Positions 37,341 to 64,000 of a DNA stretch of 64,000 nucleotides are shown piece by piece. Every line of letters starts with the position of its first letter. The stretch's first letter is position 1. Both the position numbers and the translations under genes were made by a program. The notes under the pieces were generated by a model, which had not been told where the DNA came from, searched no databases, and saw nothing but the letters and a program-made list of their open reading frames with translations. The DNA is from Herpetosiphonaceae bacterium (GTDB taxonomy: Bacteria > Chloroflexota > Chloroflexia > Chloroflexales > Herpetosiphonaceae). Location of the stretch: positions 1 to 64,000 of the forward strand of contig JABXJS010000247.1 of the NCBI GenBank assembly GCA_013538855.1, in the 5' to 3' direction.

Positions 37341-37415
37341 GGGCCGGTAGCTCAACGGTAGAGCATCTGACTCTTAATCAGCTGGTTGTGGGTTCGAATC
37401 CCACCCGGCTCACCA
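37341..37415 (+). tRNA. tRNA-Lys (anticodon CTT)
   Basis: Acceptor GGGCCGG pairs with CCGGCTC (one G-T), D arm GCTCAACGGTAGAGC, anticodon loop CTCTTAA with CTT at 37373-37375, T arm GTGGGTTCGAATCCCAC. The CCA end is encoded (37413-37415). It has its own promoter and terminator. Confidence 0.95.
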
Positions 37416-37692: not shown

Positions 37693-38982
37693 CTACGGCT
37701 GCTTTGGATAGCGCGTCAGCCGCAGCGCGACACCAGCGGTCCACAGGATGGTTAGACAGCCAAGCAGGATGAACTGCACCTGAATACCGCTGCTCGGCTG
37801 CTGGCCAACGAGCCAGCCAAAGAAGGGCAACAGTGGGCCGTGCGGCTGCATGGCCGGAGTAAACACATGGTCGGCAAAAAAGCCGGCGCTGATAAAGCCC
37901 AAGGTGAGCGCCAGCGAGGCGAGCGCGCTGACCAGCGCGAAAACCCGGCCGTGCAGCGCATTAGGCAGCTGCTGCTGAATCAGCGTCGCATGGTTGGTGC
38001 TGCCAAACGGCAGCATCGCAAAGTAAACAACAGCGGCGATAGCCAGGCCGAGCATACTTGGCAGCCAGCCAGCGAGCACCATCGCCAGCGCGCCAACCAG
38101 CTCAGCCAGCAGCACAGCCCGCGCCAAGCGCCGCGGCGGGCGCAGCAGACTTACTGCTACGCTGCCAGCCAGCATGCCTAGACCGCCCAAGGTCAAGAGA
38201 AAGCCGAGCGCAGGCAAGGAGTGGAGCTCAAGCACCAGCGGCGTGATCAGCACCTCGATGCTGCCAGCGCTAAAGTTGCTCAAGATGATCAAGCTCGTCA
38301 CCGCGACTAAGGCTGGATGGCGCAAAAACTCGCGCCATCCAGCCAGGGCCGAGCGCAGCAAGGGCAGCGCGTCAGCGGTATGCTCACGAACGACAGGACT
38401 AAAGCGCGTAGTTGTGGTTGTGAGCAGCGCCAGCCCAAACGTCAGCACATCAACGGTGAAGATCAAGGGCATACCAGCCCAGACCAGCAGTGCGCTGCCA
38501 AACAGCGGCGCAAGCAGCTGCGCGAGCGCGTTGCTCAGCTGCATCAACCCATTGGCCCGACTATGCTGCGCTGGCCCGACCAGCTGCGGCACGCTGGCAG
38601 CATAGGCCGGCCACTGACACGCGCGCGCGAGCGCATTGACGCTGTTGGCCAGGTAGATCTGCCAGCTCACCAAGTGGCCCATACTGAAGAGCACGATCAA
38701 GCAGACGGTGCTGAGGCCGGCGATGCTGTCGCTGACGATCATCACCATGCGACGGCTGTAGCGATCGCCGAGCGCCCCGGCCCAGGGCGCGATCAGCAGC
38801 GCAGGCACGGTGTTGGTGAGCAAAACCAGCGCGTAGTCGCTCACAGCACCGTGCTGCTGATAGACCCACACACCCAGCGCGAAGCCGGTCATGCTTGAGC
38901 CAATCATCGAGCCAGTTTGACCAAACCACAGCACCAGAAAGCGCAGCATCCCCTGATAGCGCAAGCGACGGACAAGCATCAT
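37693..38982 (-). CDS. MFS transporter, probable exporter of the NRPS/PKS product
   Basis: A 429-residue transporter with about 12 membrane segments. The loop between segments 2 and 3 reads GALGDRYSRRMVM, the MFS signature. It is most like EntS/MFS_3 exporters, which pump out siderophores and macrolides. Its ATG overlaps the TAA of the last NRPS gene by one base (TAATG), so it is translated with the cluster and likely exports its product or gives self-protection. Two ATGs are adjacent (38982, 38979). Confidence 0.88.
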   Translation of the reverse strand: MMLVRRLRYQGMLRFLVLWFGQTGSMIGSSMTGFALGVWVYQQHGAVSDYALVLLTNTVPALLIAPWAGALGDRYSRRMVMIVSDSIAGLSTVCLIVLFSMGHLVSWQIYLANSVNALARACQWPAYAASVPQLVGPAQHSRANGLMQLSNALAQLLAPLFGSALLVWAGMPLIFTVDVLTFGLALLTTTTTRFSPVVREHTADALPLLRSALAGWREFLRHPALVAVTSLIILSNFSAGSIEVLITPLVLELHSLPALGFLLTLGGLGMLAGSVAVSLLRPPRRLARAVLLAELVGALAMVLAGWLPSMLGLAIAAVVYFAMLPFGSTNHATLIQQQLPNALHGRVFALVSALASLALTLGFISAGFFADHVFTPAMQPHGPLLPFFGWLVGQQPSSGIQVQFILLGCLTILWTAGVALRLTRYPKQP

Positions 38983-41900
38983 TATTCTGACTCCAAGCGT
39001 GCGCTGATCAAGGCAGCCAGCGTCTGCACATGCGGTGGGTGCAAGATCGTGTGGTGATCGCCAGCGATGGACTCGACGCGCACAGGCGCGCTGCTCAGCT
39101 GGTCCCAGCCCCAGTTCGGCTGCGCAGCGAGGGCTGGATCGACGGCCTCGTCGCGAGCTTTGACCAGCACGAGCGGCACAGCGAGCGGCGCTGGTGGCTG
39201 GAAGCTGGACTGGTGATTAGCGCGGAACACCGCCAAGAAGCGCTCAAGCAAGGCTGGCTCGGTCTGGGCAGGCAGCACAGCGTGGTCGATCAGCTCAGCG
39301 GTAAGGCGGCGGCACTGCTCCAGCGGCTCCAGCGTGGCCAGCTCAGCGTCGCTGATGGCGAACTCAACAGCAAAGGCTTGCTCCAGCACCTGCTTGCCGC
39401 GCAGCAGCCAAGCAGACCATGGCTCAGATTCGGCTGGCTGCTGCCGAGCCTGCGGCGCAGCGCTATCGATGCTGATCAGCTGCGCGATCGGCTGGTCTGC
39501 TGCAAGGGCCAGGCTGGCGATGGCCCAGGCGACATCGGCACCAAAGGAGTGGCCGATGAGCGTATACGGGCCGAGCGGATGCTGCTGCTGCATCGCCTGC
39601 CACGCCTGCTCGGCCATGGCCTCGACCGCAGTAAAGGGCGACTGACCAGGCTCAAGGCCATAGGCTTGCAGGGCATAGATCGGCCGCTGCGTCTGAATCT
39701 GCTGGGCCAGCTGCTGCAAGTACAGCACATTTCCGCCAGCTCCAGGCACCAAGAAGATCGGCGGCAGGCTGCTCGCGCCCTGGCGCAGGGGCACCACCGG
39801 CGACCACTGGCTTGGCTGCTGGCGCAGCAGCTGGGCAAACTCGGCGATGGTGGGAGCCTGGTATAGGCTGGTGAGCGGCAGCGGCTGCTGGGCCAGCGGC
39901 TGCACCAAGGCCATGAAGCGAATGGCCGCGAGCGAGTGGCCGCCGTGCTCTAAGAAGTGATCGTGAATGCCAAGCTGATGGCCCAGCACCTTGGCCCAAA
40001 TATGCTGGAGCTGTAGCTCAACGGCGTCGCGGGCCAGCTGCGGGGCTGGCTGATCGGTCCATGGCTGCGGCAAGGCTTGCCGATCAATCTTGCCATTGGG
40101 CGTCAGCGGCCAGGTGTCAAGCGGCATAATCGCGCTGGGCAGCATATAGCGCGGCAGCTGCTGGGCCACATAGTGGCGCAGCGTCTCGGCTGAGAATGTT
40201 GGCGCTGCCGGAATGACATAGGCCACCAGCACCGCGTCCTGGTCGGTGGTTGGGCGCACGACCACCAGCGCCTGGGCCACATCAGGATGGGCCAGCAGCA
40301 CAGCCTCAATCTCGCCTAGCTCGATACGATAGCCGCGCAGCTTGATCTGCTGATCGATGCGGCCTAGGCACTCGAGCGTGCCATCGCTGCGGAAGCGCGC
40401 CAAGTCGCCGGTGCGATACATGCGGGCGTTAGCGCTGCTGGCAAACGGATCGGCGATGAAGCGCTGCGCGGTTAACTCCGGCCGCTCGTGGTAGGCGCGC
40501 GCAACACCACAGCCGCCAATATACAGCTCGCCGATGGCCCCAACGGGCAGCGGCTGCTGCTGGGCATCGAGCACATAGCACTGTGTATTAGCAATGGGTC
40601 GCCCAATCGGAATATGCGTGGCCTGATCGAGCAACTCAGTGGTGATCTGGGCGCACGTCGACCAGACACACGTCTCGGTGGGGCCATACATATTCCACAG
40701 CTGGCTAACACGCTCCAGCAGGGCGCTAGCAAGCTCGCGTGGCAGCGGCTCGCCGCCGCACAGTGCGCGGAAGGGTGAGCGCCCGCGCCAACCGGCGGCC
40801 ACAAGCATGCGCCATGTGGCCGGCGTGGCCTGCATGATCGTCACAGCGTGCTGGTCGATCAGTTCGATCAACTGCTGGGCATCGCTGGCGGCCGCGCGGC
40901 TGGCCAGCACCACCGTGCCGCCGCACAAGAGCGGCCCATACAGCTCCAACACAGCAATATCAAACGAGAGAGTCGTCACGGCCAGCAGCACATCGGAGCG
41001 GGCGATGCCGGGCTGCTGCTGCATCGATTGCACAAAATTGACCACCGAGCGGTGCTCAAGCAGCACGCCTTTGGGCTTGCCGGTAGAGCCAGAAGTGTAG
41101 ATCGCATAGGCCAGATCGGCCTGGCTGGCGCTGGGCACGGGCGGCGTTGCGGGCATGCTGGCGAGCGCAGCGTCGAGCGTCGGCAGATCAACGACCGTCC
41201 ACGGGCCGTGCTGCAAGGCGGGATCAATGGACTGGTTGGGAACTTGCGCCGTGAGCAGCACGCGAATGGCGGCATCATCGGCCATGTAGATCAAGCGCTC
41301 CGGCGGGAAGCTTGGATCAAGCGGCACGTAGGCTCCGCCGGCTTTGAGCACCGCAAGCATCGACACCAGCAGCAGCGCAGAGCGCTCTAGGTGAATGCCG
41401 ACGAGGCTATTGGGGCCAACGCCTAGCCCGCACAGGTAGTGGGCCAGTCGGTTCGCGCGCTGCTCAAGCTCGGCGTAGGTGAGCCGCTCGGAGCCAGCGA
41501 TCAGGGCGACAGCGGCGGGGGTGCGCTGAGCTTGGAGCTGAAACAGCTCGTGCAGGCAGTGGCGGCTATGCGGCTGCGCGGTGGCATTCCAGGCAGCGAG
41601 GACATGCTGATCGGCCTGGAGGGCGGGCAGGGCGGCGAGGGTGGCGTGCTGCGTGAGCGCGCCCAGAGTTTGGCAAAAAGCCGCCAGCAGGCTCGTCATC
41701 AACTGCGGATCGAAGCGCTCGGTGGCATAGCTAAGCGCGCATAGAATCTGTGTGCCTGGCGCGACCACCAGCGTCAGCGGGTAGTTGGTCTGCTCGGTGG
41801 CGACAACATCGCTGATAGTCAGCCCTGGCTCAAGCTCGTCCTGAGCGCTGCTAGGATAGTTTTCAAAGACCATGATGCTTTCAAACAGCGGCGTTGGCTG

Positions 41901-44900
41901 CGGAATATTGCTCCAGCGCTGGAGATCAACGAGGCTGCTGAACGCGAACTGCTGGCACGCGAGCTGGCGCTGCTGCAGCGTCGTCAGCCATGGGCCGAGC
42001 GCTGCTTGCGGATCAAGCGAGATCACACAGGGCAGCGTGTTGATAAACATACCGACCATCTGCTCGGCGGCAAGCAGGTTTGCCGGCCGCCCGGCCACCG
42101 TTAGGCCAAAGAGCACCTGCTTGTGGCCGCTGTAGCGGCTGAGCACATAGCCCCAGGCCGCCTGCGCAAGCGTGCTCAGCGTTACATGGTGTTCGCGAGC
42201 GAAGCGGGCGAGCTGCGCGCTATCCGCCGCCGACAGCGTGTGCTGCAGCTTGGCCCATGGCTGGTTCGCCTGACGCTGGCCGGTGTAGTCGCACGGCAGC
42301 GGAGTTGGCTGCTCAACCGGAGCGAGGTAGTCGCGCCAAAACTGCTCAGCCGCAGCTTGATCCTGCGACTGAAGCCAGGCGACATACTCGCGGTAGCTCG
42401 GCGCTGGCGCGAGCTGCGGGCGCTGATCGCGCAGCAGCTGTTGATAGAGCATAAGCACCTCGTTGAGCACAATCGGCACCGACCAGCCATCGAGCAGCAG
42501 ATGATGGTGTGTCCAGATGCAGTAGTGCTGATCCAGGCCGACCTTGATCACGCTGATGCGCATCAGCGGAGCCTGCTGGAGATCGAAGCCACGCTGGCGA
42601 TCAGCAACCGCATACGCCTGGATGGCCTGCTCGAGCGCGGCGGCAGGCTGAGCGGACCAATCGTGATAGCTGAGCGCAAACGGGCAGTGCGCCAGCACCA
42701 CCTGGCAGGGATGGGTCAGGCCCGTGCTGTAGAAGGCCGTGCGCAGGACGGCATGGCGCTCAACGACCAACTGCCAGGCTTGGTCGAAGCACGCGAGCGT
42801 CAATGCGCCAGACAGCCGACAGGCAACTTGTTCGATATAAAAATGCTGCTCAGGCGCTAGCAGTGCGTGGTAGAGCATGCCCTCCTGCAGCGGCGTCAGG
42901 CGATAGATGTCGGCGACTGGCTGAGCGACGTGATTGAGCACGGCGGCTAGCTCGCGCTGCTCAAGCTGCGCATAGGGCACATCGCTGGGCGTCAACACCG
43001 GGCGGTCAAGCGACTGGCAGTGCGCGCTGATGGCGTGCAGCGTGGCGGCAACAGCGTGCGCCCACTCTTCAACAGCGGCTGGCGGCTGCCAGTCGGCGCA
43101 GTACTCCCACTGGAGCGTGAGACAGCCAGCTTGCACATAGCCATTAATTTCAACGATGCTGGTGCGCGGCGTGGCCGTGTCCTGCTCGCCACCAGTGTCG
43201 ATGTCCGCCAGGCACTTGAGCGGCGCTTGGAGCGTGCCCTGATCGATCTGGCCCAAGTAGTTAAAGGTGAGCGCCAAGGGCGCAGCGACGTGGAGCGACT
43301 GACGGACGGACGCATCAGGATGCGCATAGCGCAGCCAGCCGTAGCTCAGGCCCAGCTCCGGCAGCGCACGCAGCTGCTCCTTGATGCCAACGAGGGACTG
43401 GGCCAGGTCGGCAGGGCTAGGCACGCTCAGGTGGACAGGATAGATGCTGGTGAGCCAGCCGACGCTGCGCGTCAAGTCCATGGCGAAGCGATCGCCGGCG
43501 CGGCCGTGGCTCTCGCGCTCCAGGCTGAGGCCGTGCTCGCCGCTCCACTGGCAGTAGGCCAGCGCCAGCGCCGTGATCAGCACGTCATCAATGGTGGTGC
43601 GATAGGCGTGATGAACAGCGCCGAGCAGGGCCGCCGTTAGCTCAGCAGGCAGCGTCTGCTGATAGCGCAGCGTATTGCCAACCGTGTTGACGAGCGCTTG
43701 ATCCTGGCTGCCAACGAGCGGGCGCAGCTGACGCACCGTCTGCTGCCAGTAGGGCAGGTCGGCCATAAAAGCGGCGCTCGTTTGGGCGTGCAGGCAGCTG
43801 GTCCACTCGGCGACGCTGGCGCTGGCTGGGGGCGGCGTGACGCCATTGAGCAAGCTGGCCAGATCTTCAAGGATGATGCGCCACGAAACACCGTCGATAA
43901 TCCAGTGGTGGGCGATCAACAGCAGCCAGGCCTGATCGTGCTGCTGGACGTAGGCGGCGTGCAGCAGCGGCGCGTGCTGCAGATTAAGCTGGGTTTGGCG
44001 CAGCTGCGCGTGGGCGGTGATCTGGGCCTGCGCCGACTGCTGCGGATCAAGCGCGACAACCTCCAGCGGCAGCTCGGCCGGGCCAAGCTGCTGAGCGAGC
44101 GCAGGATCACAGACGAGGCGCAGCGTGGCGTGAATCTGCATAAGCTGATTCAACGCGGACTGGACATCCTGCGCCGCCAGCGGGGCCGTCAGCTCCACGA
44201 TGACGCTCTGATTGTAGTGGTGCGGGTTGGGCGCGGCCAGCGTGCGAAACCAGTGCTGCGCAGGCAGCAGGTGCTGCGGAGCCTGGGCGGGCTGGCGCAC
44301 TATCGGTGCAAGGCTTTCGGTGGGCAGAATCTGAGCTAGCGCGGCGATCGTCTGATGCTGAAAGAGCAGGCGTGGCGTGAGCGCCAGCCCGGCCGCACGG
44401 CTGCGGCTGACCACCTGCATCGCCAAAATCGAGTCGCCGCCGAGGCCAAAGAAATTCGCGTGGCGGTCGATGGGCTGGCCAAGCACCTGCTGCCAGATTG
44501 CCGCGAGCGCTTGCTCGATGGGGCCTTGCGGCGCAGCGTGCGCGGCAGCTGGCACAGCTGGCGCTAGCGTGGGCGTGCGCGCTAGCAGCGCCTTGCGATC
44601 GATCTTGCCATTCGGTGTGAGCGGCAGCTGCTCCAGCTGCACAAGGCTGCTGGGCAGCATATACTCAGGCAGGCGCGACTGGAGCCACTGGAGCACAGCG
44701 GCCTGATCGAGCGGCGCGGCAGCGACCACGTAGGCCACCAGGCTGGGGTGCGGCAGTGGCTGCACCAAGGCAACCGCGTGGAGGATATCTGCGTGCTGCG
44801 CGAGGGCTGTCTCGATCTCGCCGAGCTCGATGCGAAAACCGCGCAGCTTAATCTGCTGATCGCCGCGGCCAAGGAACTCAAGCTGGCCGTCGCTGGTCCA

Positions 44901-47660
44901 GCGCGCACGATCACCGCTGCGATACATGCGCGCACCAGGCGTGGCGCTGAAGGGATCGGGCACGAAGCGCTCGGCGGTGAGGCGCGGCCGTCCGAGATAG
45001 GCGCTGGCCAAGCGCGGGCCGGCCAGATACAGCTCGCCGCTGGCCCCGCTGGGCACGGGCTGCTGCCACTGGTCGAGCACATACAGCGCCGTGGCCGCAA
45101 ACGGGCGACCGATGGGCACCGCGCGCTCGGCGACCAGCGGCTGAGTCGAGTCGGCGCTGAAGTAGCAGCTGTCGATGACCGCCTCGGTGAGGCCGTAGGA
45201 GTTGATCAAGCGCGTGTTGGGGCCGAGCAGCGCTTGAAAGCGCTGATACTCCTCGCCGTACCAGATATCGGAGCCAGCGATGACGAGCTGCAGCTCCAGG
45301 CGCTGGTTCGTCAGCGCAAGATAGTGGCACAGCTCGCGCAGCACGGCCGGCACAAACTCAGCGCAGTCGACGTCCTCGGCCACCAGCAACTGGTAGAGGT
45401 CGGCTGGCGACAGCAGGTAGTCGCGGGGACAGAACACCAAGCGGCCGCCAGAGCCAAGCGCGCGCACAAAATCGCCAGTGCAGACATCGAACGAAAATGC
45501 CGCCATCTGGGCATGCACACGCACAGCGGCGGTCAAATCGTAGGCTGACTCCCAGGCGCGATAGGTCTGGGCCAGCGGGCCGTGGGCAACGACAGTGCCC
45601 TTGGGCTGGCCAGTCGAGCCAGAGGTATAGATCACGTAGGCGGGCTGCTCGGGATGCGTGGCCAGCGGGGGCGCATGCGGAGCATAGTCAGCTAAGCTGT
45701 CGGCCAGCTGCTCCCACACAGCAACAGCGAGGGTGGATGGCAGGCAGTCCGCCAACGCCTGCTCGACCACAATCAACCGTACATCAGCATCGCGACACAT
45801 AAACGCCAGGCGCTCGACAGGGTAGCTTGGATCGAGCGGCAGGTAGGCCGCGCCTGCCTTGAGCACGCCGAGCCAGGCAATCGGCATCGCGAGCGAGCGC
45901 TCGAAGCACAGGCCCACGATATCGCCGCAGCCAAGGCCCTGCTGGCGCAGATAGTGGGCGAACTGGTTGGCGGCCTGATCGAGCTGACGGTAGGTCAGAT
46001 GCTGGCCCTGCCAGGTTACGGCGCGGGCGTGGGGCTGGCGCAGCGCGTGCTGGGCGATCAGCGTGTGGATGGGCGCAGCATCGGGGATGGGCGCGGTCAC
46101 TGCGTGGGCAGGCAGCGCGGTGATCGCCAGCGTGCTCAGGCGCTGGGTGGGCGCGGCGCAGACCTGACTAAGAGTCTGTGTGAAGTCGGCGATCCAGGCG
46201 GCAACCGTGGCGGGATGGAACAGATCGGCGGCAAACTCGACCTGGCCGGTGAAGCCGTCAGGCGACTCCTGCATGGTCCACGAGAGATCGAACATGGCCG
46301 TGCCAGCGCCGATGTCGTCGAGCACGCATGGCTCGATGCTGAGGCCGGGCAGCTGCACGCTGCTGGATGGCGCAGTCTGGAGATCGAACATGACTTGGAA
46401 GAGCGGATTGTAGCCCAGGGTACGCTCGGGCTGCAGCGCATCGACAACGTGGGCCAAGGGGGCATCCTGATTGGCAAAGGCCGCGAGGCACACGTGCTGA
46501 GTATGTTCGAGCAGGTCAGCGAATGATGCGCGCAGATCGGGCTTGACGCGCAGGACCAGCGTGTTGACAAAAAACCCAATCAGGTGCTCGGTTTCCAGAC
46601 GGTTGCGGTTGGCGATGGGCGTGCCAATCGGCAGATCAGCGCTGCCAGTGAGGCGGGCGAGCCAGACAGCAAAGCCGGCGAGCAGCGTCATGTACGGCGT
46701 GCAGCCGTAGCGCTGGCCCAGCTGGCGAATCTGCTGGCTCAGCAGCTTGGGCAGCGCAAAGTGGTGCGTGTGACCGCGCCATGACTGGCTGGCAGGCCGC
46801 GGGTAATCGCTGGGCAGCTCCAGCAGGGCCGGCGCGCCGCGCAAAGTCTCCGACCAAAACTGCACCTGCTTTTCCCAGAGCGGCGCTTGGGCGGGGCTGC
46901 GCTGCCAGGCGGCATAGTCGGCGTACTGGATCGGCAGCGGCGGAAACTGCGGCGTCTGGCCGTGGGCCAGCGCCTGATAGCTGGTGGTCAGCTCGTGGAC
47001 CAGGCAGCCCATCGACCAGCCGTCGGCGATGCAGTGGTGCATCACAACGAGGAGCAGGGCTTCGTCGGGGGCGAGCTGGATGAGGTGCAGGCGCAGCAGC
47101 GGGCCGCTGCTCAAGTCAAATGGGGCGAGCGCAGCGGCGCGCAGCGTGTGCAGGGCCTGCTGGCGTGGCTGATCGTAGCGCGAGTAGTCGTCGAGTGCCA
47201 GAGGCAGCGCGGCGAGGCTGGGGGTGGGATGAATGTGCTGGACGGGGCTGTCGGCCTGGCCGCCAAAGCTGGTGCGCAGAATCTCGTGGCGCGCCATGCT
47301 CAGCTGGAGCGCCTGGGCGAAGAGCGCCGCATCGAACGCCCCGCGCAGCCAGAAGCAGCCCGACAGGTTGTAGGCGCTGCTCTGGCCCTCCAGCTGATCG
47401 AGGAACCACAGGCGCTCCTGGCCAAACGAGAGCGGCAGCGGCGCAGAGCGCGGGACGGGCATAATGGTGTCGGCGGCGACGGCGGGCGCTTGATACTGCT
47501 CGCACCAGGCGATCAGGGCGGGCTTATGGGCGCTCAGAGCGCTGCGCAGCTCGGCGGTTAAGGCTCCCTTGGGCGCATTGACGCGGAGCTTCGCGCCCTC
47601 AAGCCATATTTTTATGTCGAGCAGTCGCAGCTGCTCCAAGAGCGTCTGCACCTCGGTCAT
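38982..47660 (-). CDS. NRPS: docking-C-A-T-E-C-A-T-TE, termination protein
   Basis: A 2892-residue synthetase, two modules plus release. TubC-type docking domain (1-56); LCL condensation (about 72-505; MHHCIADGW); adenylation 1 (530-1040; YTSGSTGQPKG) with residues D-V-G-E-V-A-S-I-D, closest to Orn/Lys codes; carrier Ser near 1077 (LGGDSILAM); epimerase (1110-1560; HHWIIDGVSW); condensation 2 (1580-2010; HHHLLLDGWS), as expected after an epimerase; adenylation 2 (2034-2530) with D-I-L-Q-L-G-M-V-W, near Gly codes; carrier (HGGHSLAA, near 2577); thioesterase (2640-2880; GHSFGAD, Ser near 2702; GDHHTIL). All active motifs are intact. It overlaps the PKS stop in ATGA. It should add a D-basic residue and Gly, then free or cyclise the chain. 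Confidence 0.93.
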   Translation of the reverse strand: MTEVQTLLEQLRLLDIKIWLEGAKLRVNAPKGALTAELRSALSAHKPALIAWCEQYQAPAVAADTIMPVPRSAPLPLSFGQERLWFLDQLEGQSSAYNLSGCFWLRGAFDAALFAQALQLSMARHEILRTSFGGQADSPVQHIHPTPSLAALPLALDDYSRYDQPRQQALHTLRAAALAPFDLSSGPLLRLHLIQLAPDEALLLVVMHHCIADGWSMGCLVHELTTSYQALAHGQTPQFPPLPIQYADYAAWQRSPAQAPLWEKQVQFWSETLRGAPALLELPSDYPRPASQSWRGHTHHFALPKLLSQQIRQLGQRYGCTPYMTLLAGFAVWLARLTGSADLPIGTPIANRNRLETEHLIGFFVNTLVLRVKPDLRASFADLLEHTQHVCLAAFANQDAPLAHVVDALQPERTLGYNPLFQVMFDLQTAPSSSVQLPGLSIEPCVLDDIGAGTAMFDLSWTMQESPDGFTGQVEFAADLFHPATVAAWIADFTQTLSQVCAAPTQRLSTLAITALPAHAVTAPIPDAAPIHTLIAQHALRQPHARAVTWQGQHLTYRQLDQAANQFAHYLRQQGLGCGDIVGLCFERSLAMPIAWLGVLKAGAAYLPLDPSYPVERLAFMCRDADVRLIVVEQALADCLPSTLAVAVWEQLADSLADYAPHAPPLATHPEQPAYVIYTSGSTGQPKGTVVAHGPLAQTYRAWESAYDLTAAVRVHAQMAAFSFDVCTGDFVRALGSGGRLVFCPRDYLLSPADLYQLLVAEDVDCAEFVPAVLRELCHYLALTNQRLELQLVIAGSDIWYGEEYQRFQALLGPNTRLINSYGLTEAVIDSCYFSADSTQPLVAERAVPIGRPFAATALYVLDQWQQPVPSGASGELYLAGPRLASAYLGRPRLTAERFVPDPFSATPGARMYRSGDRARWTSDGQLEFLGRGDQQIKLRGFRIELGEIETALAQHADILHAVALVQPLPHPSLVAYVVAAAPLDQAAVLQWLQSRLPEYMLPSSLVQLEQLPLTPNGKIDRKALLARTPTLAPAVPAAAHAAPQGPIEQALAAIWQQVLGQPIDRHANFFGLGGDSILAMQVVSRSRAAGLALTPRLLFQHQTIAALAQILPTESLAPIVRQPAQAPQHLLPAQHWFRTLAAPNPHHYNQSVIVELTAPLAAQDVQSALNQLMQIHATLRLVCDPALAQQLGPAELPLEVVALDPQQSAQAQITAHAQLRQTQLNLQHAPLLHAAYVQQHDQAWLLLIAHHWIIDGVSWRIILEDLASLLNGVTPPPASASVAEWTSCLHAQTSAAFMADLPYWQQTVRQLRPLVGSQDQALVNTVGNTLRYQQTLPAELTAALLGAVHHAYRTTIDDVLITALALAYCQWSGEHGLSLERESHGRAGDRFAMDLTRSVGWLTSIYPVHLSVPSPADLAQSLVGIKEQLRALPELGLSYGWLRYAHPDASVRQSLHVAAPLALTFNYLGQIDQGTLQAPLKCLADIDTGGEQDTATPRTSIVEINGYVQAGCLTLQWEYCADWQPPAAVEEWAHAVAATLHAISAHCQSLDRPVLTPSDVPYAQLEQRELAAVLNHVAQPVADIYRLTPLQEGMLYHALLAPEQHFYIEQVACRLSGALTLACFDQAWQLVVERHAVLRTAFYSTGLTHPCQVVLAHCPFALSYHDWSAQPAAALEQAIQAYAVADRQRGFDLQQAPLMRISVIKVGLDQHYCIWTHHHLLLDGWSVPIVLNEVLMLYQQLLRDQRPQLAPAPSYREYVAWLQSQDQAAAEQFWRDYLAPVEQPTPLPCDYTGQRQANQPWAKLQHTLSAADSAQLARFAREHHVTLSTLAQAAWGYVLSRYSGHKQVLFGLTVAGRPANLLAAEQMVGMFINTLPCVISLDPQAALGPWLTTLQQRQLACQQFAFSSLVDLQRWSNIPQPTPLFESIMVFENYPSSAQDELEPGLTISDVVATEQTNYPLTLVVAPGTQILCALSYATERFDPQLMTSLLAAFCQTLGALTQHATLAALPALQADQHVLAAWNATAQPHSRHCLHELFQLQAQRTPAAVALIAGSERLTYAELEQRANRLAHYLCGLGVGPNSLVGIHLERSALLLVSMLAVLKAGGAYVPLDPSFPPERLIYMADDAAIRVLLTAQVPNQSIDPALQHGPWTVVDLPTLDAALASMPATPPVPSASQADLAYAIYTSGSTGKPKGVLLEHRSVVNFVQSMQQQPGIARSDVLLAVTTLSFDIAVLELYGPLLCGGTVVLASRAAASDAQQLIELIDQHAVTIMQATPATWRMLVAAGWRGRSPFRALCGGEPLPRELASALLERVSQLWNMYGPTETCVWSTCAQITTELLDQATHIPIGRPIANTQCYVLDAQQQPLPVGAIGELYIGGCGVARAYHERPELTAQRFIADPFASSANARMYRTGDLARFRSDGTLECLGRIDQQIKLRGYRIELGEIEAVLLAHPDVAQALVVVRPTTDQDAVLVAYVIPAAPTFSAETLRHYVAQQLPRYMLPSAIMPLDTWPLTPNGKIDRQALPQPWTDQPAPQLARDAVELQLQHIWAKVLGHQLGIHDHFLEHGGHSLAAIRFMALVQPLAQQPLPLTSLYQAPTIAEFAQLLRQQPSQWSPVVPLRQGASSLPPIFLVPGAGGNVLYLQQLAQQIQTQRPIYALQAYGLEPGQSPFTAVEAMAEQAWQAMQQQHPLGPYTLIGHSFGADVAWAIASLALAADQPIAQLISIDSAAPQARQQPAESEPWSAWLLRGKQVLEQAFAVEFAISDAELATLEPLEQCRRLTAELIDHAVLPAQTEPALLERFLAVFRANHQSSFQPPAPLAVPLVLVKARDEAVDPALAAQPNWGWDQLSSAPVRVESIAGDHHTILHPPHVQTLAALISARLESE

Positions 47661-51922: not shown

Positions 51923-51930
51923 CGAGCCTT

Positions 51931-54900
51931 TTATTCCTCTTCAAAATTAAGCCGGACGCGCTGACGGCGCTGGCGCTGCTGCGCTTGGGCCTGCTGGCGC
52001 TGCGTGCGCTGCAAAGCGACATGATCGCTTGATGGCACGTCGAGGGCCTCAGGCGCGGCGGTGGATAGGGCCGCAGCCAGCGCGGCAATGGTTGGATGTT
52101 CAAACAACACGATGAGCGCAATCGAGCGCTGCAGGGCCGTCTCCAGGCGGCTGTGCACCTGGATCAAGGCCAAGGAGTGGCCGCCGACATCAAAAAATGG
52201 GCGATTGACATCGGCGATTGGGCGCTCAAGCACCGTCTCCCAGATGGCGGCGATGGTCTGCTCAAGCGGCGTCGTGGGCTGCGCCTGGGTCACAGCGGCG
52301 CTGATCACCGGCGCAGGCAGCGCCTTGCGATTGAGCTTGCCGTTGCTGCTGAGCGGCAGCTGAGCGAGCGGCACCCAGTGGGTCGGCACCATAGCCTCGG
52401 GCAGCCGTGCGCGCAGCCAAGCGCGTAGCTCCGCCTCGGCTGGCGGCGCTGAGCTAGGCTGGGCCACAACGTAGGCCACCAGCTGGGCCGCTGCGGTCTG
52501 GCTGGGCCGCCACGGGTGCACCACCGCCTGCTGAACAGCGGGATGCTGGCTGAGCTGATGCTCGATCTCGCCAAGCTCCACGCGAATGCCGCGCACTTTG
52601 ATTTGAAAGTCGTTGCGGCCCAGGTACTCAATTGCGCCGTCGGCGCGCCAGCGGGCCAGATCGCCGGTGCGATACAGGCGTGCCCCGGGAGCGCTGGAGT
52701 AAGGATGCGGAATGAAGCGCTCGGCGGTGAGATCAGGCCGGCCATGGTAGCCGCGCGCCAGATTCACGCCGCCGATCAGCAGCTCGCCAGCCACGCCCAC
52801 CGGCACAGGCCGCAGCTGCGGATCGAGAATGTAGAGCTGGGTGTTGGCGATCGGGTAGCCAATCGGCACGCTGCGCTCGGCGCTGGGCTGACAGTGCCAG
52901 GCGCTCACATCGACGGCGGCCTCGGTTGGACCGTACAGGTTGTGCAGCGCGGCAGGCAGCGTCTGGGCAAAGCGCTGGCTCACCTCGACGCTCAGAGCCT
53001 CGCCGCTACAGAAGACCTGGCGCAAGCTGGTGCACTGCGCCGCCTGTGGCTCCTCCAAAAAGAGGCTGAGCATCGAGGGCACAAAGTGCATAGTCGTGAC
53101 CTTGTGGGCCTGGATCACCTCGGCCAGATAGCGGCGGTCGAGGTGGCCGCCGGGCCGCAGCAGCACCAACTGCGCGCCGCTGATCAGCGGCCAGAAAAAC
53201 TCCCACACCGAGACATCGAAGCTGTAGGGCGTTTTTTGCACCACCACATCGCTGGCGTCGAGCTGGTAGGCCTGCTGCATCCACAGCAAGCGGTTGACAA
53301 TCGCCTGATGGGTGTTGATCACCCCTTTGGGCTGCCCTGTGGAGCCGGAGGTGTAGATCATATAGGCCGCGCTCAGCGGATGCAGCGGCGGCTTGCGCCA
53401 GTCCAACTGCGGATCAGGCTGCCAGTCGGCATCGAGCACCAGCACTGGCAGCGCGTCCGGCGCAACGGCAAGTGGCGCATCGACGATCAGCAGGCGCGGT
53501 GCGGCATCGGCCAGCATGTGCTGCAAGCGCTCGGCGGGATAGCTCGGGTCGAGCGGCACATACGCCGCGCCCGCCTTGAGGATGGCGAGCAGCGCCACCA
53601 CGAGCTGCACCGAGCGCTCCATCAGCACGCCTATGCGATCATCAACCTGCACGCCCTGGGCCTGCAAGGCCGCCGCAAGCTGTGTAGCCCGCCGCTCAAG
53701 CTCAGCGTAGCTCAGGCTGGTGTGCGCATCGCAGACGGCGACGGCCGCCGGGGTGCGCTGCACCTGCGCGTCCAGCAGATCGGTGAGCAGATCGGAGGTC
53801 GCCCAGTCCTGCGCGGTGCTGTTCCAAGTGTGCAGCAGCTGGTGCTGTTCGGCCTGATCCAGCAGCGTCAGCTCAGCGAGCGTCGCGGCGTGGGGCAGCT
53901 GCTGCAGCAGGCGCAGCAGGTGGTGGGTGAGCTGCTGAATGCGCTCAGGCGTGTACACCGCCTGATCGTAGCTGAGCTTGAGCGTCAGCGCCGCATCGGG
54001 CAGCGCCAGCACCGTCAGCGGCAGGTTGGTCTGCTCGGTGGTTTTGGCGGCAGCGATGGACAGATCGCTGAGCGCCTGCTCTAGGCTGTCAGCAATCGGA
54101 TAGTTCTCAAAGACCAGCAGCGTTGTAAACAGCGGCTGGCTAGCGGCGATGGCGCTAGCCTGCTGAATCGCCGTCAGCGGCGTCGCGGCGAAGTCGTTGC
54201 AGCGGCTCTGCTGCGCCTGTAGCGCTTGGAGCCAGGGCACAACCGGCTGCTGTTGGTCGAGCTGCGCGCGCACGGGCAGGCTGTTGATGCATAGTCCAAC
54301 TAGCTGCTCCATGCCTGCTAGCTCGGCGGGCCGACCGGCGACCGTTGCGCCAAACACCACATCAGCCTGGCCAGCGTATAGCCCCAGCAGCACGGCCCAC
54401 GCGCCCTGCAGCGCACTGTTCAGCGTCAGATGATGCTGGCGCGCCCACTGCTGGAGCTGCTGGGTCTGCTGCTCATCAAGGCTCAGGCTATACTCCGCAT
54501 AGCCGCTGGTAGGTTCGAGCGGCGCGTGCGGCGCAGGCAGCGGCGTTGGCGTGTCGAAGCCAGCCAGGTACTGCTGCCAGAACTGACGCGCCGCCTGCTG
54601 ATCGTAGCCCGTGGCCCAGGCGATGTACGCACGGTAGGGCACGGCTGGCGGCAGCTGCGGTGCGCCACCGGCCTGGAGCTGCGCATAGACGGTGAACAGC
54701 TCGGTCAGCACGTTGGCGATCGACCAGCCATCGAGCAGCAGGTGATGGTGGGTCCAGACGCAGTGGTAGCGCTGCTCAGCGAGCTGAATCCAGGTCCAGC
54801 GCAGCAAGGGCGCATGGGTCACATCAAACGGGCGTGCGCGATCCGCCGCCAGCCAGGCGGCTAGCTCCTGCTGCTGTTGCTCGGCGGGCAGCGCGCGCCA

Positions 54901-57900
54901 GTCGAGCAGCTGCCAGGGCGTTTCCACCTGCTCCAGCACGATCTGCAGCGGCTGAGGCAGCCCCTCGCTGCAGAAGGCGGTGCGCAGCACGGCGTGGCGC
55001 TGCTGGATGTGCTGCCAGGCGGCGTGCAGGCAGTCGAGATCAAGCGGCCCGTTCACCGTCCACTCGACCTGCTCCAGGTACACGCTTGAGTGGGGGTTGA
55101 GCAAGTTGTGGTAGAGCATGCCGATCTGGAGCGGGGCCAGCGGGTAGATATCAACCGGCGTACCGTTGCGGGCGTGATAGCGCGCCAGCAGGCGATCAAG
55201 GCTTGGCTGATCGAGCCTGGCCAGCGCAACATCGCTGGGGGTCAGGCCCAGCCGTGGCTGCTGGGCGCAGGCAGCGATCAAGGCGCGCAGCCCGGTCAGG
55301 AAGGCGCTCAGCAGGCGCTCGATGGTCGCGGCGTGATGCCAGGCGTGATTGTACTCCCAGTCGATCTGCAGCTGGCCATCGCGCACATAGGCGGCGATGT
55401 TCAGCAGATGGCCGCGCGGCGTCGTCGCCGCCACCTCAGCGCCAGTTGGCTCAGGCGCTAGGCCCAGCAGCGGCGGCATGCTCACACTCTGATCAAGCTG
55501 GCCCAGGTAGTTGAAGACCAGCGGAACCGCAGCGGCAGCGGCGAGCTGGTCGGCGGTTGCTGTATTCAGGTAGCGCAAGATGCCGAAGCTCTGCCCGCCC
55601 TCGGGCACGGCGCGCAGCTGCTCCTTGATCGCCTTGAGCGCCGCCAGCGGCGTTGCCTCGGCAGGCAGGGCCAGCGCCACCGGATACAGGCTGGTGAACC
55701 AGCCGACGCTGCGGCTCAGATCGTGCGCTGGCTCTGGCGCAAAGCGGCCATGGCTTTCTAGATTAAGCACCAGCGTGGACTGACCGCTCCAGCCTGCGAG
55801 CGTCTGCGCAAGCGCGGTCAGCAGCAGATCGCTGATCGAGACGTGGAAGGCGCGCTGGCAGTCTTGGAGCAGCGCGCGCGTGCTGGCGCTGTCGAGCGCG
55901 GCGTGCACCATCACGGCATCGCGGGTGAGGTTGCGGCCATCGGCAGGGGTCGCATCGAGGGGCAAGGGCTGAACATGCGCGATCTGCTGCCGCCAGAAAT
56001 CAAGGTCGGCCAGGTAGCGCTGGCTCTCGGCGTGGGCCTGTAGGCTATTGGCCCATACGCTCCACGGGGTTGTGCTGGGCAGCAGCGCCGCGCCGTTGAG
56101 CGCCGCCGCCAAATCCTCCAGCACAATGCGCCACGAGACGCCGTCGATGACCAGATGGTGCGCCACGAGGATCAGGCGCGCCTGCGTGGGCGTGATGACC
56201 AGCGCCGCCACGAGACTGGGGCCGTGCTCAAGCTGGAGGCTCTGCTGCATGCGCTGGCAGATGTGCGCCAGCGTCGTCGGCCAGTTCGGCGCATCATCGG
56301 GGCAGCGATGCACCGCCAGCGGCAGCCGCTGCGCAGCGCCGTACCACTGGCGGGCCTGCTGCGGGCCAAGCTGCCAGCGCACCCGCAGAATCGGATGCAC
56401 GTCGAGCAGCTGATCGAGCGCCGCCTGCAGCGTGGCTGGGTCGAGTGTCGGCGGCACCACCAGCATCAGGCTCTGGTTGAAGTGCGCGGGATTGGCCGGC
56501 TGCAAATCGCGAAACCAGTGGCCGATCGGCGTCCAGGCGATCTCGCCCTCCAGCGCGCCATAGTCGCTCGCTACACTGGGTGCTGTCGGCTGCGCAAGCG
56601 CCGCCGCTAGCTCAGCGATGGTCTGGTGCTCAAACAGCTGGCGCGGCGTGAGCTGGAGGCCCGCAGCGCGTGCGCGGCTGACCACCTGCATCGCAATAAT
56701 CGAGTCGCCGCCAAGGGCGAAGAAGTTGGCAGCGCGGCTGGTGACCTCCAGGCCAAGCGCTGCGCTCCACAGCTCCGCCAGCTGCTGCTCGGCCGGAGAC
56801 TGGAGCGGGTCGGCCTGCGCCTGCGGCAGATGCACGTCGGCGGGGGCGGGCAGGGCGCGCCGATCCAGCTTGCCATTGCTGGTCAGCGGAAAGCTGGGCA
56901 GCTCGACCAAGGCGCTGGGCCACATGTACTCTGGCAGCAGCGTGCGCACATAGCTGGTGATCGCCTCCAGATCGAGCAGCGCCGGAGCATCTGCGCCAAG
57001 CTCGCGCGCCTGCGTTTTGGGAATCAGATAGCCGACGAGGCGCTTGTGGCCCGGCTGATCCTCGCGCACCGTCACCGCTGCAGCCTGCACAAGCGGGTGC
57101 TGGGCCAGGGCGGCCTCAATCTCGCCGAGCTCAATGCGGAAGCCGCGAATTTTGACCTGCTGGTCGATGCGGCCCAAGTACTCTAGCTCGCCGTCGGGCA
57201 AGTAGCGCACCAGATCACCGGAGCGGTACCAGCGGCTGTGCGGCGGCAGCGCAGGCGTCTGCTGGTCGGCGCGGATGAAGCGCTGTGCCGTTAGTTCCGG
57301 GCGGGCTAAGTAGCCCTGGGCCACGCCGGCCCCGCCGACGTACAGCTCGCCAGGCACGCCGATGGCAACCTGGCGGCCCTGCGCATCGAGCACCGCCAGC
57401 GCCAGATCAGGGATGGGCGCGCCGATGACGCTGCCGCGGCCAGCCTGCACATCGGCGCAGGTAAGCGGGCGGTAGGTCACGTGGACGGTGGTCTCGGTGA
57501 TGCCGTACATATTCACCAGCTGCGGCTGCTGATCGCCGTAGCGCGCAAACCACGGGCCGAGCTGGGCGAGATCAAGCGCCTCGCCGCCAAAAATCACCGT
57601 GCGCAGGGGCAGCGGCTGCTCCGCCAGCGCGTCGGCCTGCATCAGCTGATAGAAGGCCGAGGGCGTCTGATTGAGCACGGTCACGCGCTCGCGCTGGAGC
57701 AGCTGATGCAGCGCCTCTGGGCTGCGGCTCACCCAGTAGGGCACAACCACGAGCTGGCCGCCGTAGAGCAGCGCGCCCCACAGCTCCCAGACCGAGAAAT
57801 CAAAGGCGTAGGAGTGAAACAAGGTCCAGACATCGGCGGGGCTGAACTGGAACCAGGCGTTGGTCGCCAGCAGCAGGCGCACGACGTTGGCATGGCTCAC

Positions 57901-59754
57901 GACCACGCCCTTTGGCTGGCCGGTGGAGCCAGAGGTGTAGATGACGTAGGCGGGGCTGCTCGGCGCACAGTCAACGGGCGGCGGCGTTGTTGGATAGGCG
58001 CTGAGCTGCTGCGGCTGGTCGAGCAGACAGCAGTGCGCCGTCGGCACCACATCCTGAAGGTGCGACTGCGTGACCACGTGTTCAATGCCAGCGTCGGCCT
58101 GCACAAAGGCCAGGCGCTCGGCGGGATAGGTTGGATCGAGCGGCACGTAGGCCGCGCCGGCCTTGAGGATGCCCAGCACGCCAACCACCAGCGCCAGCGA
58201 GCGCTCGACGCACAGGCCGACGCGGCTACCGGCGCGCACGCCCTGCGCACACAGCGCATGCGCCACCTGGCTGCTACGCTGATCAAGCTCGCCGTAGCTT
58301 AGCCATGTATCCTCGAAGCTGACGGCCTTGGCGGCTGGCCGCGCCTGCGCCTGCTGGGCAAACCACGCATGGATGCACAGGCTGGGGGCGTAGTCGGCGG
58401 GCGACCAGTTGCCCCACATGCGCAGTGCCGACTGCTGCCGCGGTGTCAGCACGCTCATATCAGCGAGCGTGGTCGCCGTGGTCAGCCCCAGCAGCGCCGC
58501 CTTGAGCTGCGCCAGCACAAGCTCGGCAGCGGCCTGATCGTAGCGCGCCTGATCAACGCTGAGCGTGAGGCGCAGCTGCGCACCAGGCACCACAATCAGC
58601 GTGAGCGGATAGTTGGTGTGCTCAGCGAGCGCGAGCTGATCGATGTGTAGCCCGGCCTGCTGCGCATCGAGCGCCTGCAGCGGGTAGTTTTCAAACACGA
58701 TCAGGCTCTCGAACAAGCTCGCGCCGTGGGCCAGATCGCTCCAGCGCTGAATATCGACAAGCGCGCTGGCGCTATGCTGCTGCACCTCGGCGTAGTCACG
58801 CTGGAGCGCCTGAACCAGCGCGCGCGGCGTCTGCTCCGGCGCAAGGCGGATACGCACAGGCATGGTGTTGATGCACAGGCCGATCAAGCGCTCGCTCGCG
58901 GCGATCTCGGCTGGCCGCTCGGCGAAGGTGGCCCCAAAGACCACATCATCGGCCTGGCTGTGCTGCGCCAGCACGTAGGCCCAGGCTGCCTGCACACAAT
59001 TATTGATGGTCACGTGGCTGCGGCGCGCCCACGCCTGCACCTGCATCGTTTCGGCATCGGAGAGCAGCAGCTGGTGCTCGGCGAAGCGCTGGCCGTGCTC
59101 GGCGTGGGCCGGGCGCGCCAAGGGCAGCGGGGTTGGCTGGCTGAAGCCCGCCAGGTAGCCGCGCCAAAACTCGGCGGCCTGGGCCTGATCGTGCTGCTGA
59201 AGCCAGTCGATATAGGCACGATAGGGCGGGGCTGGCTCAGCTGACAGCGGCGTGTGCTGCTGAAGGGCCGCATAGTGCTGCAGCACATCCTCAAACAGCA
59301 GCGCCACCGACCATCCATCCAACAACAGATGATGAAATGTCCAGACGCAGTGCCACTCGTCGGCGCTGAGCTGTACCAGCTGCCAGCGCTGAAGCGGCGC
59401 GTGATCGAGCGCAAACGGCTGGCGCTGATCGTCAGCGAGCAGGTCGGCTAGATCGCTGGCCTGCTGCGCCTGCGGGCGGTCGCGCCAGTCGAGCAGCGTG
59501 AAGGGCAGCGCAACGTGATTGTGCACCACCTGCAGCGGCTTCTCCAGCTCCTCCCAGAAGAAGGCGCTGCGCAGGATGGTGTGGCGCGCGGCCACCTGCG
59601 CCCAGGCCTGGCGAAAGTGGTCCACGTGCAGCTGGCCGCGCAGGCGACACTGCACCTGCTCGATGTACATGCCCGCAGCGGGGCTAGCGATGGTATGAAA
59701 GAGCATGCCCTGCTGCATAGGCGACAGCTCGTAAATATCCTGAATATCCTCCAC
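51931..59754 (-). CDS. NRPS: C-A(Thr)-T-E-C-A(Ser)-T
   Basis: A 2607-residue two-module synthetase, starting with GTG at 59754 behind AAAGGGAG. Condensation (1-430; HHLLLDGWS near 139); adenylation 1 (470-965) with residues D-F-W-N-I-G-M-V-H, the classic Thr code; carrier Ser1018 (LGGDSIIAM); epimerase (1055-1500; HHLVIDGVSW near 1199); condensation 2 (1525-1950; HHHLLLDGWS near 1669); adenylation 2 (1985-2480) with D-V-W-H-F-S-L-V-D, the classic Ser code; carrier Ser2527 (VGGHSLAL). The order predicts D-Thr then L-Ser. The C-terminus is basic then acidic (QRRQRVRLNFEEE), probably a docking tail for the PKS. It starts two bases after the previous stop. Confidence 0.94.
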   Translation of the reverse strand: MEDIQDIYELSPMQQGMLFHTIASPAAGMYIEQVQCRLRGQLHVDHFRQAWAQVAARHTILRSAFFWEELEKPLQVVHNHVALPFTLLDWRDRPQAQQASDLADLLADDQRQPFALDHAPLQRWQLVQLSADEWHCVWTFHHLLLDGWSVALLFEDVLQHYAALQQHTPLSAEPAPPYRAYIDWLQQHDQAQAAEFWRGYLAGFSQPTPLPLARPAHAEHGQRFAEHQLLLSDAETMQVQAWARRSHVTINNCVQAAWAYVLAQHSQADDVVFGATFAERPAEIAASERLIGLCINTMPVRIRLAPEQTPRALVQALQRDYAEVQQHSASALVDIQRWSDLAHGASLFESLIVFENYPLQALDAQQAGLHIDQLALAEHTNYPLTLIVVPGAQLRLTLSVDQARYDQAAAELVLAQLKAALLGLTTATTLADMSVLTPRQQSALRMWGNWSPADYAPSLCIHAWFAQQAQARPAAKAVSFEDTWLSYGELDQRSSQVAHALCAQGVRAGSRVGLCVERSLALVVGVLGILKAGAAYVPLDPTYPAERLAFVQADAGIEHVVTQSHLQDVVPTAHCCLLDQPQQLSAYPTTPPPVDCAPSSPAYVIYTSGSTGQPKGVVVSHANVVRLLLATNAWFQFSPADVWTLFHSYAFDFSVWELWGALLYGGQLVVVPYWVSRSPEALHQLLQRERVTVLNQTPSAFYQLMQADALAEQPLPLRTVIFGGEALDLAQLGPWFARYGDQQPQLVNMYGITETTVHVTYRPLTCADVQAGRGSVIGAPIPDLALAVLDAQGRQVAIGVPGELYVGGAGVAQGYLARPELTAQRFIRADQQTPALPPHSRWYRSGDLVRYLPDGELEYLGRIDQQVKIRGFRIELGEIEAALAQHPLVQAAAVTVREDQPGHKRLVGYLIPKTQARELGADAPALLDLEAITSYVRTLLPEYMWPSALVELPSFPLTSNGKLDRRALPAPADVHLPQAQADPLQSPAEQQLAELWSAALGLEVTSRAANFFALGGDSIIAMQVVSRARAAGLQLTPRQLFEHQTIAELAAALAQPTAPSVASDYGALEGEIAWTPIGHWFRDLQPANPAHFNQSLMLVVPPTLDPATLQAALDQLLDVHPILRVRWQLGPQQARQWYGAAQRLPLAVHRCPDDAPNWPTTLAHICQRMQQSLQLEHGPSLVAALVITPTQARLILVAHHLVIDGVSWRIVLEDLAAALNGAALLPSTTPWSVWANSLQAHAESQRYLADLDFWRQQIAHVQPLPLDATPADGRNLTRDAVMVHAALDSASTRALLQDCQRAFHVSISDLLLTALAQTLAGWSGQSTLVLNLESHGRFAPEPAHDLSRSVGWFTSLYPVALALPAEATPLAALKAIKEQLRAVPEGGQSFGILRYLNTATADQLAAAAAVPLVFNYLGQLDQSVSMPPLLGLAPEPTGAEVAATTPRGHLLNIAAYVRDGQLQIDWEYNHAWHHAATIERLLSAFLTGLRALIAACAQQPRLGLTPSDVALARLDQPSLDRLLARYHARNGTPVDIYPLAPLQIGMLYHNLLNPHSSVYLEQVEWTVNGPLDLDCLHAAWQHIQQRHAVLRTAFCSEGLPQPLQIVLEQVETPWQLLDWRALPAEQQQQELAAWLAADRARPFDVTHAPLLRWTWIQLAEQRYHCVWTHHHLLLDGWSIANVLTELFTVYAQLQAGGAPQLPPAVPYRAYIAWATGYDQQAARQFWQQYLAGFDTPTPLPAPHAPLEPTSGYAEYSLSLDEQQTQQLQQWARQHHLTLNSALQGAWAVLLGLYAGQADVVFGATVAGRPAELAGMEQLVGLCINSLPVRAQLDQQQPVVPWLQALQAQQSRCNDFAATPLTAIQQASAIAASQPLFTTLLVFENYPIADSLEQALSDLSIAAAKTTEQTNLPLTVLALPDAALTLKLSYDQAVYTPERIQQLTHHLLRLLQQLPHAATLAELTLLDQAEQHQLLHTWNSTAQDWATSDLLTDLLDAQVQRTPAAVAVCDAHTSLSYAELERRATQLAAALQAQGVQVDDRIGVLMERSVQLVVALLAILKAGAAYVPLDPSYPAERLQHMLADAAPRLLIVDAPLAVAPDALPVLVLDADWQPDPQLDWRKPPLHPLSAAYMIYTSGSTGQPKGVINTHQAIVNRLLWMQQAYQLDASDVVVQKTPYSFDVSVWEFFWPLISGAQLVLLRPGGHLDRRYLAEVIQAHKVTTMHFVPSMLSLFLEEPQAAQCTSLRQVFCSGEALSVEVSQRFAQTLPAALHNLYGPTEAAVDVSAWHCQPSAERSVPIGYPIANTQLYILDPQLRPVPVGVAGELLIGGVNLARGYHGRPDLTAERFIPHPYSSAPGARLYRTGDLARWRADGAIEYLGRNDFQIKVRGIRVELGEIEHQLSQHPAVQQAVVHPWRPSQTAAAQLVAYVVAQPSSAPPAEAELRAWLRARLPEAMVPTHWVPLAQLPLSSNGKLNRKALPAPVISAAVTQAQPTTPLEQTIAAIWETVLERPIADVNRPFFDVGGHSLALIQVHSRLETALQRSIALIVLFEHPTIAALAAALSTAAPEALDVPSSDHVALQRTQRQQAQAQQRQRRQRVRLNFEEE

Positions 59755-59756
59755 AG

Positions 59757-62700: not shown

Positions 62701-64000
62701 TAGAGCGGATCGAGCGGCAGGTAGGCCGCGCCCGCCTTCAGAATGCCCAGCAGCGCCACCGCCAGCTCCGGGCAGCGCGTGGCGTACACGCCAACAATCG
62801 CCCCGGAGCTAACGCCCTGCTCACGCAGCCTATGCGCCAGCTGGTTGGCACGCTGATCAAGCTCGGCATAGCTCAGCAGCTCAGCCTCCCAGCGCAGCGC
62901 GACCGCGCTTGGCGTGCGCTGCGCCTGCTGCTCCACCAGCATATGCAGGCCGTGATCATGCGCAAACTCGCGCTGGGTCTGATTCCAGTCGACCAAGAGC
63001 TGCTGGCACTCGTCAGCGGAGAGCATGCTGAGCTGGGACAGCGGTTGGTTCGGGGCGGCCAGCGCCTGCGTGAGCAGCGCCACCAGATGATCGCGCATGC
63101 GCTCGATGGTCGCCGCCGCAAAGAGATCGCGGTTGTACTCCAGGCGCGCCAGCAGCCCGGCCGGCGTCTCCTCAATAAACAGCGTCAGATCGAACTTGGC
63201 ATAGCCAAGATCAAGCGGCAGCTGCTTGATCGTCAGGTCGGCGATGCTCAGCTGCTGGCTGGGCACGTTTTGATACGCCAGCATGGCCTGAAAGATCGGC
63301 GTGTGGCTAAGATTACGCTCCAATTGCAGCTGCTGGACGACCTGCTCAAACGGCACGTCTTGATGTGCGTACACCGCCAGACTCTGCTCGCGCACCTGCT
63401 CAACCAAGGTCTGCAGATCGAGCGCAGGCGTAAGCGTCAGATTAAACACCACCGTGTTGACAAAGAAGCCGATCAGCGGCTGGGCCTCAGCCGTTGTGCG
63501 GTTGGCAATCGGCGTGCCGATCACCACCTGCTCCTGGCGGCTGTAGCGGCTCAGCAGGCTGGCAAACACGGCCAAAGACACCATAAACGGCGTCGTCTGC
63601 GTGCGCTGCGCGAAATCTTTGAGCTGGCGGCTCAGGCTGTCGGGCAGCGCAAAGCTGAGGGTGTGGCCGGCAAAGCTCTGCTGGGCCGGGCGCGGATGAT
63701 CCGTTGGCAGCTCCAGCAGCCGCGGCGCGTCGGCGAGCTGCTGCTGCCAGAAGCTGAGCTGCTGCTGCTGGCGCGGGCTAGCCAGCCACTCGCGCTGCCA
63801 CTCGCTGTAGTCGGCGTACTGCAGCGCCAGCGGCGTGAGCTGCGGCGGAGATCCAGCGCGGTGGGCGGCGTAGCCTGCGACCAGCTCCTGAATGAACAGC
63901 TCCATCGACCAGCCATCGGCGATAATGTGGTGCAGCACCACGGCCAGGACATAGTGCTCGGCGCTGAGCTGAAACAGCTCCAGGCGCAGCAGCGGCCCCT
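59757..64000 (-). CDS. NRPS, partial: C-A(Asn-like)-T-E
   Basis: The frame is open through the right edge; its start lies outside. It begins inside a condensation domain ([16 protein letters not shown]) and holds one adenylation domain ([11 protein letters not shown]) with specificity residues D-A-T-K-V-G-E-V-G, close to Asn codes (DLTKLGEVGK type). Then come a carrier ([14 protein letters not shown]) and an epimerase ([19 protein letters not shown]). The domains predict D-Asn. The C-terminal end [16 protein letters not shown] matches the linker between epimerase and condensation domains in the next protein, so it is a communication helix. Stop TAG at 59757 is two bases before the next start. 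More modules may lie upstream. Confidence 0.92.

Follow-up and report, generated by a model that had tools for sequence, protein, structure and literature searches.

A 64,000-nucleotide stretch from a Herpetosiphonaceae bacterium (the window; contig JABXJS010000247.1, assembly GCA_013538855.1) contains five minus-strand genes of a hybrid nonribosomal peptide synthetase/polyketide synthase (NRPS/PKS) line, which form the downstream part of a seven-gene operon. The locus probably encodes an entire, collinear assembly line whose product would be a cyclic beta-amino-fatty-acid lipopeptide, predicted from its modules as cyclo(beta-amino-acyl–N-methyl-Dap–D-Asn–D-Thr–4-amino-3,5-dihydroxypentanoyl–D-Orn–Gly), with Dap standing for 2,3-diaminopropionate. 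What is read directly from the DNA is the order of genes and domains, the intact motifs of the active sites, the specificity codes and the conservation of the array in Herpetosiphon.

The window takes up the first 64,000 bases of contig C207, which is 79,688 bases long and belongs to a 6.3-Mb genome, and the operon reaches position 75,513. Junctions between the five window genes, in the order of Table 1, are -1, -4, 8 and 2 bases. A sequence-only reading of the window had described these genes as separated or overlapping by at most 8 bases, with the domain order C-A-T-E / C-A-T-E-C-A-T / KS-AT-KR-ACP / docking-C-A-T-E-C-A-T-TE / MFS; the coordinates of the open reading frames, Pfam and the E-domain motifs agree. 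Its range of 37693-64000 is truncated, as the N1 gene runs on to 64358 and two more genes follow upstream. The PKS1/NRPS hybrid and fatty acyl-AMP ligase (FAAL) genes are co-directional with NRPS N1 and are joined by 4-base ATGA overlaps (start of the hybrid placed at 73777; the longest open reading frame begins at 73828). The first module of that reading is thus the second residue-adding module of the line. It had also missed the lipid-loading half, i.e. FAAL, PKS, aminotransferase and N-methylating module, and with it the part that marks the line as one for a beta-amino-fatty-acid lipopeptide. With these genes upstream, the line opens by activating a lipid, extending it once by PKS and transaminating it at the beta position, which is how iturins and puwainaphycins are established to acquire their beta-amino fatty acids (PMC4219810).

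A FAAL stands at the start of the line, followed by a non-reducing KS-AT-ACP, a fused class-III aminotransferase possessing the lysine for pyridoxal phosphate (PLP; YGKIVGGGMPI), and then C-A. All three E domains are labelled Condensation by Pfam and hold HHxxxDG, ESHGR, SVGW(F/L)TS and NYLGQ. The three C domains directly after E domains have HHLLLDG in common, and the remaining three show HHIQVDG, HHIIADG and HHCIADG; by this motif comparison, which is not a formal subtype test, the post-E domains are consistent with the D-accepting type. PKS2 follows an NRPS module as KS-AT(malonyl)-KR-ACP, the arrangement of a statine-type unit, and neither DH nor ER was found in it. Its active sites are intact (KS Cys-His-His in TACST / ETHGTAT / NIGH; malonyl AT with GHSIGE / SHAFHS), and its KR contains the catalytic Tyr and Asn (YASAN). 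The TE motif GHSFG is intact as well.

The six A codes were derived by aligning each domain with the Phe-activating domain of GrsA, whose own code was recovered correctly. They read, in module order, DIWELTADD, DATKVGEVG, DFWNIGMVH, DVWHFSLVD, DVGEIGSID and DILQLGMVW. DVWHFSLVD reads as Ser and DILQLGMVW as Gly. In the zeamine cluster DATKVGEVGK is printed as Asn (a prediction) and DFWNIGMVHK as Thr (PMC3547906); for ornithine, the code DVGEIGSIDK has been published from a tetramate synthetase (PMC3992020). The alignment reproduces the Asn, Thr, Ser and Gly codes of the sequence-only reading. Its Orn-like assignment of the basic residue also stands, backed by the published code, while its string DVGEVASID does not: it results from a one-residue shift at positions 299/301, is not found printed in the open-access literature, and is replaced by DVGEIGSID in each of the four orthologues once the alignment sets IAG one place differently. 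Orn is now the best reading of the basic residue.

The likely meaning of the module 1 code comes from the genes that neighbour it. SbnA and SbnB are 2,3-diaminopropionate synthases, and in three Herpetosiphon-type genomes two additional genes at the cluster end exceed the NCBIfam cut-offs for both (SbnA 433.8 bits, cut-off 349.95; SbnB 433.3 bits, cut-off 326.9). The code DIWE(L/M/V)TADD is found repeatedly in other genomes. It is directly adjoined by SbnA/SbnB in Chitinophaga (G187, G211) and Parabeggiatoa (G163), and by SbnB in Chitinophaga polysaccharea. A 6.3-kb contig of Chamaesiphon contains SbnB and immediately thereafter an A domain with DIWELTADD; the aminotransferase cluster of the same genome has DVGEVGSID and no SbnB. 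This supports DIWELTADD as a Dap code. The Chitinophaga G187 cluster is ordered SbnA-SbnB-[DIWELTADD]-[Val-nMT]-[Thr-E]-[x-E]-[Asp]-[Phe]. Chitinopeptins C/D carry Dap between the fatty acid and N-methyl-Val, with D-allo-Thr next (PMC9248904), and the G187 cluster is consistent with them as a match of module order, not a proven identity. The substrate of module 1 is thus probably Dap. No open-access paper was found to print DIWELTADD; its tie to Dap, which extends across four phyla, may be useful for predicting many orphan clusters.

All seven genes are present in the same order and with 71-84% identity in three Herpetosiphon-type genomes (G005, G007, G008), among them H. aurantiacus DSM 785. 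The six A codes are identical in all four copies, and the divergent regulator is 76-77% identical. Per-domain identities to Herpetosiphon amount to 63-90% (A domains 76-82%). That the entire array is kept in three further genomes excludes a chance arrangement. A close aminotransferase (at least 86%) is found only in these four of the 158 genomes searched in the class, and other Chloroflexota reach at most 61%. The H. aurantiacus genome paper of 2011 lists in its Table 6 a "PKS/NRPS 1" (Haur_01976-01989, 47.7 kb, 2 PKS + 6 NRPS modules, "Lipopeptide") and, as the next locus, a LanM lantibiotic one (PMC3368417). The H. aurantiacus copy likewise counts 2 PKS and 6 NRPS modules, and a LanM gene (DUF4135 + LANC_like) lies immediately downstream of it; because module counts, position and LanM neighbour agree, the cluster is taken as Haur_01976-01989, an assignment not read from annotation. 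Window copy and Herpetosiphon PKS/NRPS 1 thus share the seven genes, the six codes, the divergent regulator and the module counts. They differ in that sbnA and sbnB follow the MFS gene in Herpetosiphon, whereas the window copy lacks both and is bounded by a tRNA-Lys, and in G+C content (66% in the window copy vs 52-53%). The cluster family is therefore not new, and its product is undescribed as far as the open-access literature searched shows. A 2016 review counted only three classes of metabolites for the genus, with siphonazole, auriculamide and O-methylkolavelool as the compounds then known, and no antibiotic (PMC4902038). Our search of the open-access literature, with subscription journals and MIBiG outside it, recovered no Herpetosiphon lipopeptide product, nor any match for 4-amino-3,5-dihydroxypentanoic acid. 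The sequence-only reading knew no Chloroflexota compound of this order; the novelty implied there has to be lowered, as the same cluster had been tabulated in 2011.

From these modules we infer the substrates, the N-methylation of Dap and the closure of the ring. The FAAL would activate a free fatty acid and load it onto the N-terminal ACP of PKS1, whose KS-AT would add one malonyl unit to give a beta-ketoacyl chain, and the fused aminotransferase would convert the beta-ketone into a beta-amine. Module 1 is predicted to add and N-methylate Dap, N1 to add D-Asn, and N2 to add D-Thr and then Ser. PKS2 would condense malonate onto Ser and reduce the ketone, yielding the statine-type 4-amino-3,5-dihydroxypentanoyl unit. 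After addition of D-Orn and Gly by N3, the TE would release the chain, most likely as a macrolactam on the lipid beta-amino group, and the MFS protein may export the product. The part of this series encoded in the window, from D-Asn and D-Thr through the Ser-plus-malonate unit to a D-basic residue and Gly, had been proposed in the sequence-only reading and is supported by the codes, E motifs and PKS2 domains. With a C14 beta-amino acid, the predicted monoisotopic mass is 842.5226 (C38H70N10O11, hand calculation), with homologues stepped by 14.0157.

Several points weigh against this structure. No metabolite is known for the cluster. Neither an LDD motif nor the diagnostic Trp was seen in the KR of PKS2, and the configuration of the hydroxyl is unreadable from sequence, as is ring closure. 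Instead of forming a macrolactam on the lipid beta-amine, the TE might cyclize via the beta-amine of Dap or the hydroxyl of Thr or of the statine unit, all of them side-chain groups, or free a linear acid; chitinopeptins A/B have a 3-amino fatty acid and yet form a lactone on Thr (PMC9248904). We regard such a release as rather unlikely beside the macrolactam.

The supply of Dap is a further difficulty. The genome of the window, estimated as 100% complete, yielded no SbnB match in the profile search, and SbnA stays below the cut-off (best 251 vs 350 bits). Its best SbnA-model matches have equal-scoring counterparts in Herpetosiphon and hence look like ordinary cysteine/cystathionine-type enzymes. 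DIWE(L/M)TADD furthermore occurs without SbnB in Nostoc (G160), Plectonema (G173) and a Thiotrichaceae metagenome-assembled genome (G174). Decayed sbnA/sbnB genes on the window contig were considered and rejected, as tblastn recovered no remnant. Dap supply is thus unexplained in this genome, and either a missing draft contig, another Dap source or a different substrate may account for it. The last would mean that module 1 takes a non-Dap residue, e.g. 2,4-diaminobutyrate or ornithine, after loss of the Dap synthases, an unlikely substitution that the absence of SbnA/SbnB would favour, together with a Plectonema cluster whose genome lacks SbnB and which shows DIWEMTADD at the position taken by Orn-type codes in its sister clusters. 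Against it, all nine pocket residues of the first A domain are the same as in Herpetosiphon, and its identity of 80-81% is comparable to that of the other A domains, so module 1 bears no sign of decay. That PKS2 is skipped or inactive, leaving an ordinary hexapeptide lipopeptide, is compatible with the sequence and with the lack of a known product, and is very improbable given that all its catalytic residues are intact and 71-72% identity (KS 82%) is kept between the genera.

The macrolactam predicted above, with Dap as its first residue, would be the product of an assembly line ordinary in kind and chemically specific, found in a relative of predatory Herpetosiphon and probably making an antibiotic-like lipopeptide ring. 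It is possible, and put forward here tentatively, that the two genera of predatory-type Chloroflexota have an undescribed scaffold in common, a single ring that unites N-methyl-Dap and D-Orn with a beta-amino acyl chain and a statine-type unit derived from Ser, and that the window lineage has retained an intact Dap module after losing the Dap synthase. If true, such retention would imply that Dap is obtained elsewhere or that the substrate has changed. For Herpetosiphon, the generic "lipopeptide" entry of 2011 becomes a concrete testable structure with a mass series.

Table 1. Features of the lipopeptide locus and its boundary, in contig numbering (identical to window positions up to 64000)
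Feature	Position	Strand	Basis and remarks
tRNA-Lys (CTT), between MFS gene and suf operon; cluster boundary	37341..37415	+	ARAGORN
MFS exporter, last gene of the operon	37693..38982	-	Pfam MFS_1, 104 bits; orthologue 75-76% identical, same place, in three Herpetosiphon-type genomes
NRPS N3, 2892 aa: TubC_N docking-C-A(DVGEIGSID, Orn)-T-E-C-A(DILQLGMVW, Gly)-T-TE	38982..47660	-	Pfam, motifs, A codes
PKS2, 1421 aa: KS-AT(malonyl)-KR-ACP	47657..51922	-	Pfam, active-site motifs
NRPS N2, 2607 aa: C-A(DFWNIGMVH, Thr)-T-E-C-A(DVWHFSLVD, Ser)-T	51931..59754	-	Pfam, A codes, E motifs
NRPS N1, 1533 aa: C-A(DATKVGEVG, Asn)-T-E	59757..64358	-	window edge at 64000; 358 bases beyond
PKS1/NRPS hybrid: ACP-KS-AT-ACP-aminotransferase-C-A(DIWELTADD, Dap type)-N-methyltransferase-T	64355-73777	-	Pfam; wholly outside window
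FAAL (fatty acyl-AMP ligase)	73774-75513	-	Pfam; outside window, same contig numbering
HTH/NB-ARC/TPR regulator, divergent	76426-78996	+	Pfam; outside window

The 3' end of the tRNA-Lys has no second copy in the loci retrieved, and tRNA-mediated integration of the cluster was rejected on this ground. The suf operon adjoining the cluster includes a SufB gene (window 29492-32593, minus strand) split by an intein, with Intein_splicing, Hint and LAGLIDADG_3 between SufBD_N and SUFBD_core; SufB is a known intein host. At least six further contigs of the genome (C140, C9, C10, C176, C238, C164) contain NRPS condensation domains, and the genome is rich in additional NRPS clusters as judged by these domains.

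Among known systems, the iturin/mycosubtilin synthetases (fenF, mycA-C) share the FAAL, ACP-KS-AT-ACP, aminotransferase, C-A-T start and TE end (PMC4219810). The window cluster differs from them in its stand-alone FAAL, N-methylated Dap-type first residue, internal KS-AT-KR-ACP and other residues. The strict iturin family comprises seven alpha-amino acids, with Asn first and no internal PKS; the window cluster falls outside it with six A domains, a first code DIWELTADD accompanied by an N-methyltransferase, and the internal KS-AT-KR-ACP. The puwainaphycin synthetase of Cylindrospermum has a separate FAAL, a PKS-aminotransferase-NRPS hybrid and a TE in common with the window cluster, and possesses in addition a methylating PKS and a monooxygenase domain; its published description lacks an internal statine-type module. 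Chitinopeptin synthetases of Chitinophaga share the DIWELTADD module with SbnA/SbnB (the latter as in the Herpetosiphon copies) and an N-methyl residue near the start, and chitinopeptins A/B also the beta-amino fatty acid. They differ in their 14-15 residues and the lactone on Thr, with no internal statine-type PKS module described. Hydrococcus sp. Prado102, whose aminotransferase is the closest outside Chloroflexota (66%) and whose line has an Asp-Thr order, was rejected as the same cluster: its full contig encodes a shorter line with neither internal PKS nor Dap code. Beta-amino-fatty-acid lines of Brasilonema (L068, L080) show [AMT-C-A(Ser)-T] directly followed by [KS-AT-KR-ACP], a domain order that predicts a statine-type unit derived from Ser immediately behind the lipid. 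At the level of pathways rather than sequences, microsclerodermin/pedein biosynthesis likewise combines a beta-amino acyl start with a gamma-amino-beta-hydroxy acid for which an amino acid is joined to malonate; that unit derives from Gly (gamma-amino-beta-hydroxybutyric acid, GABOB), and the other residues and the lipid part differ from those of the window cluster.
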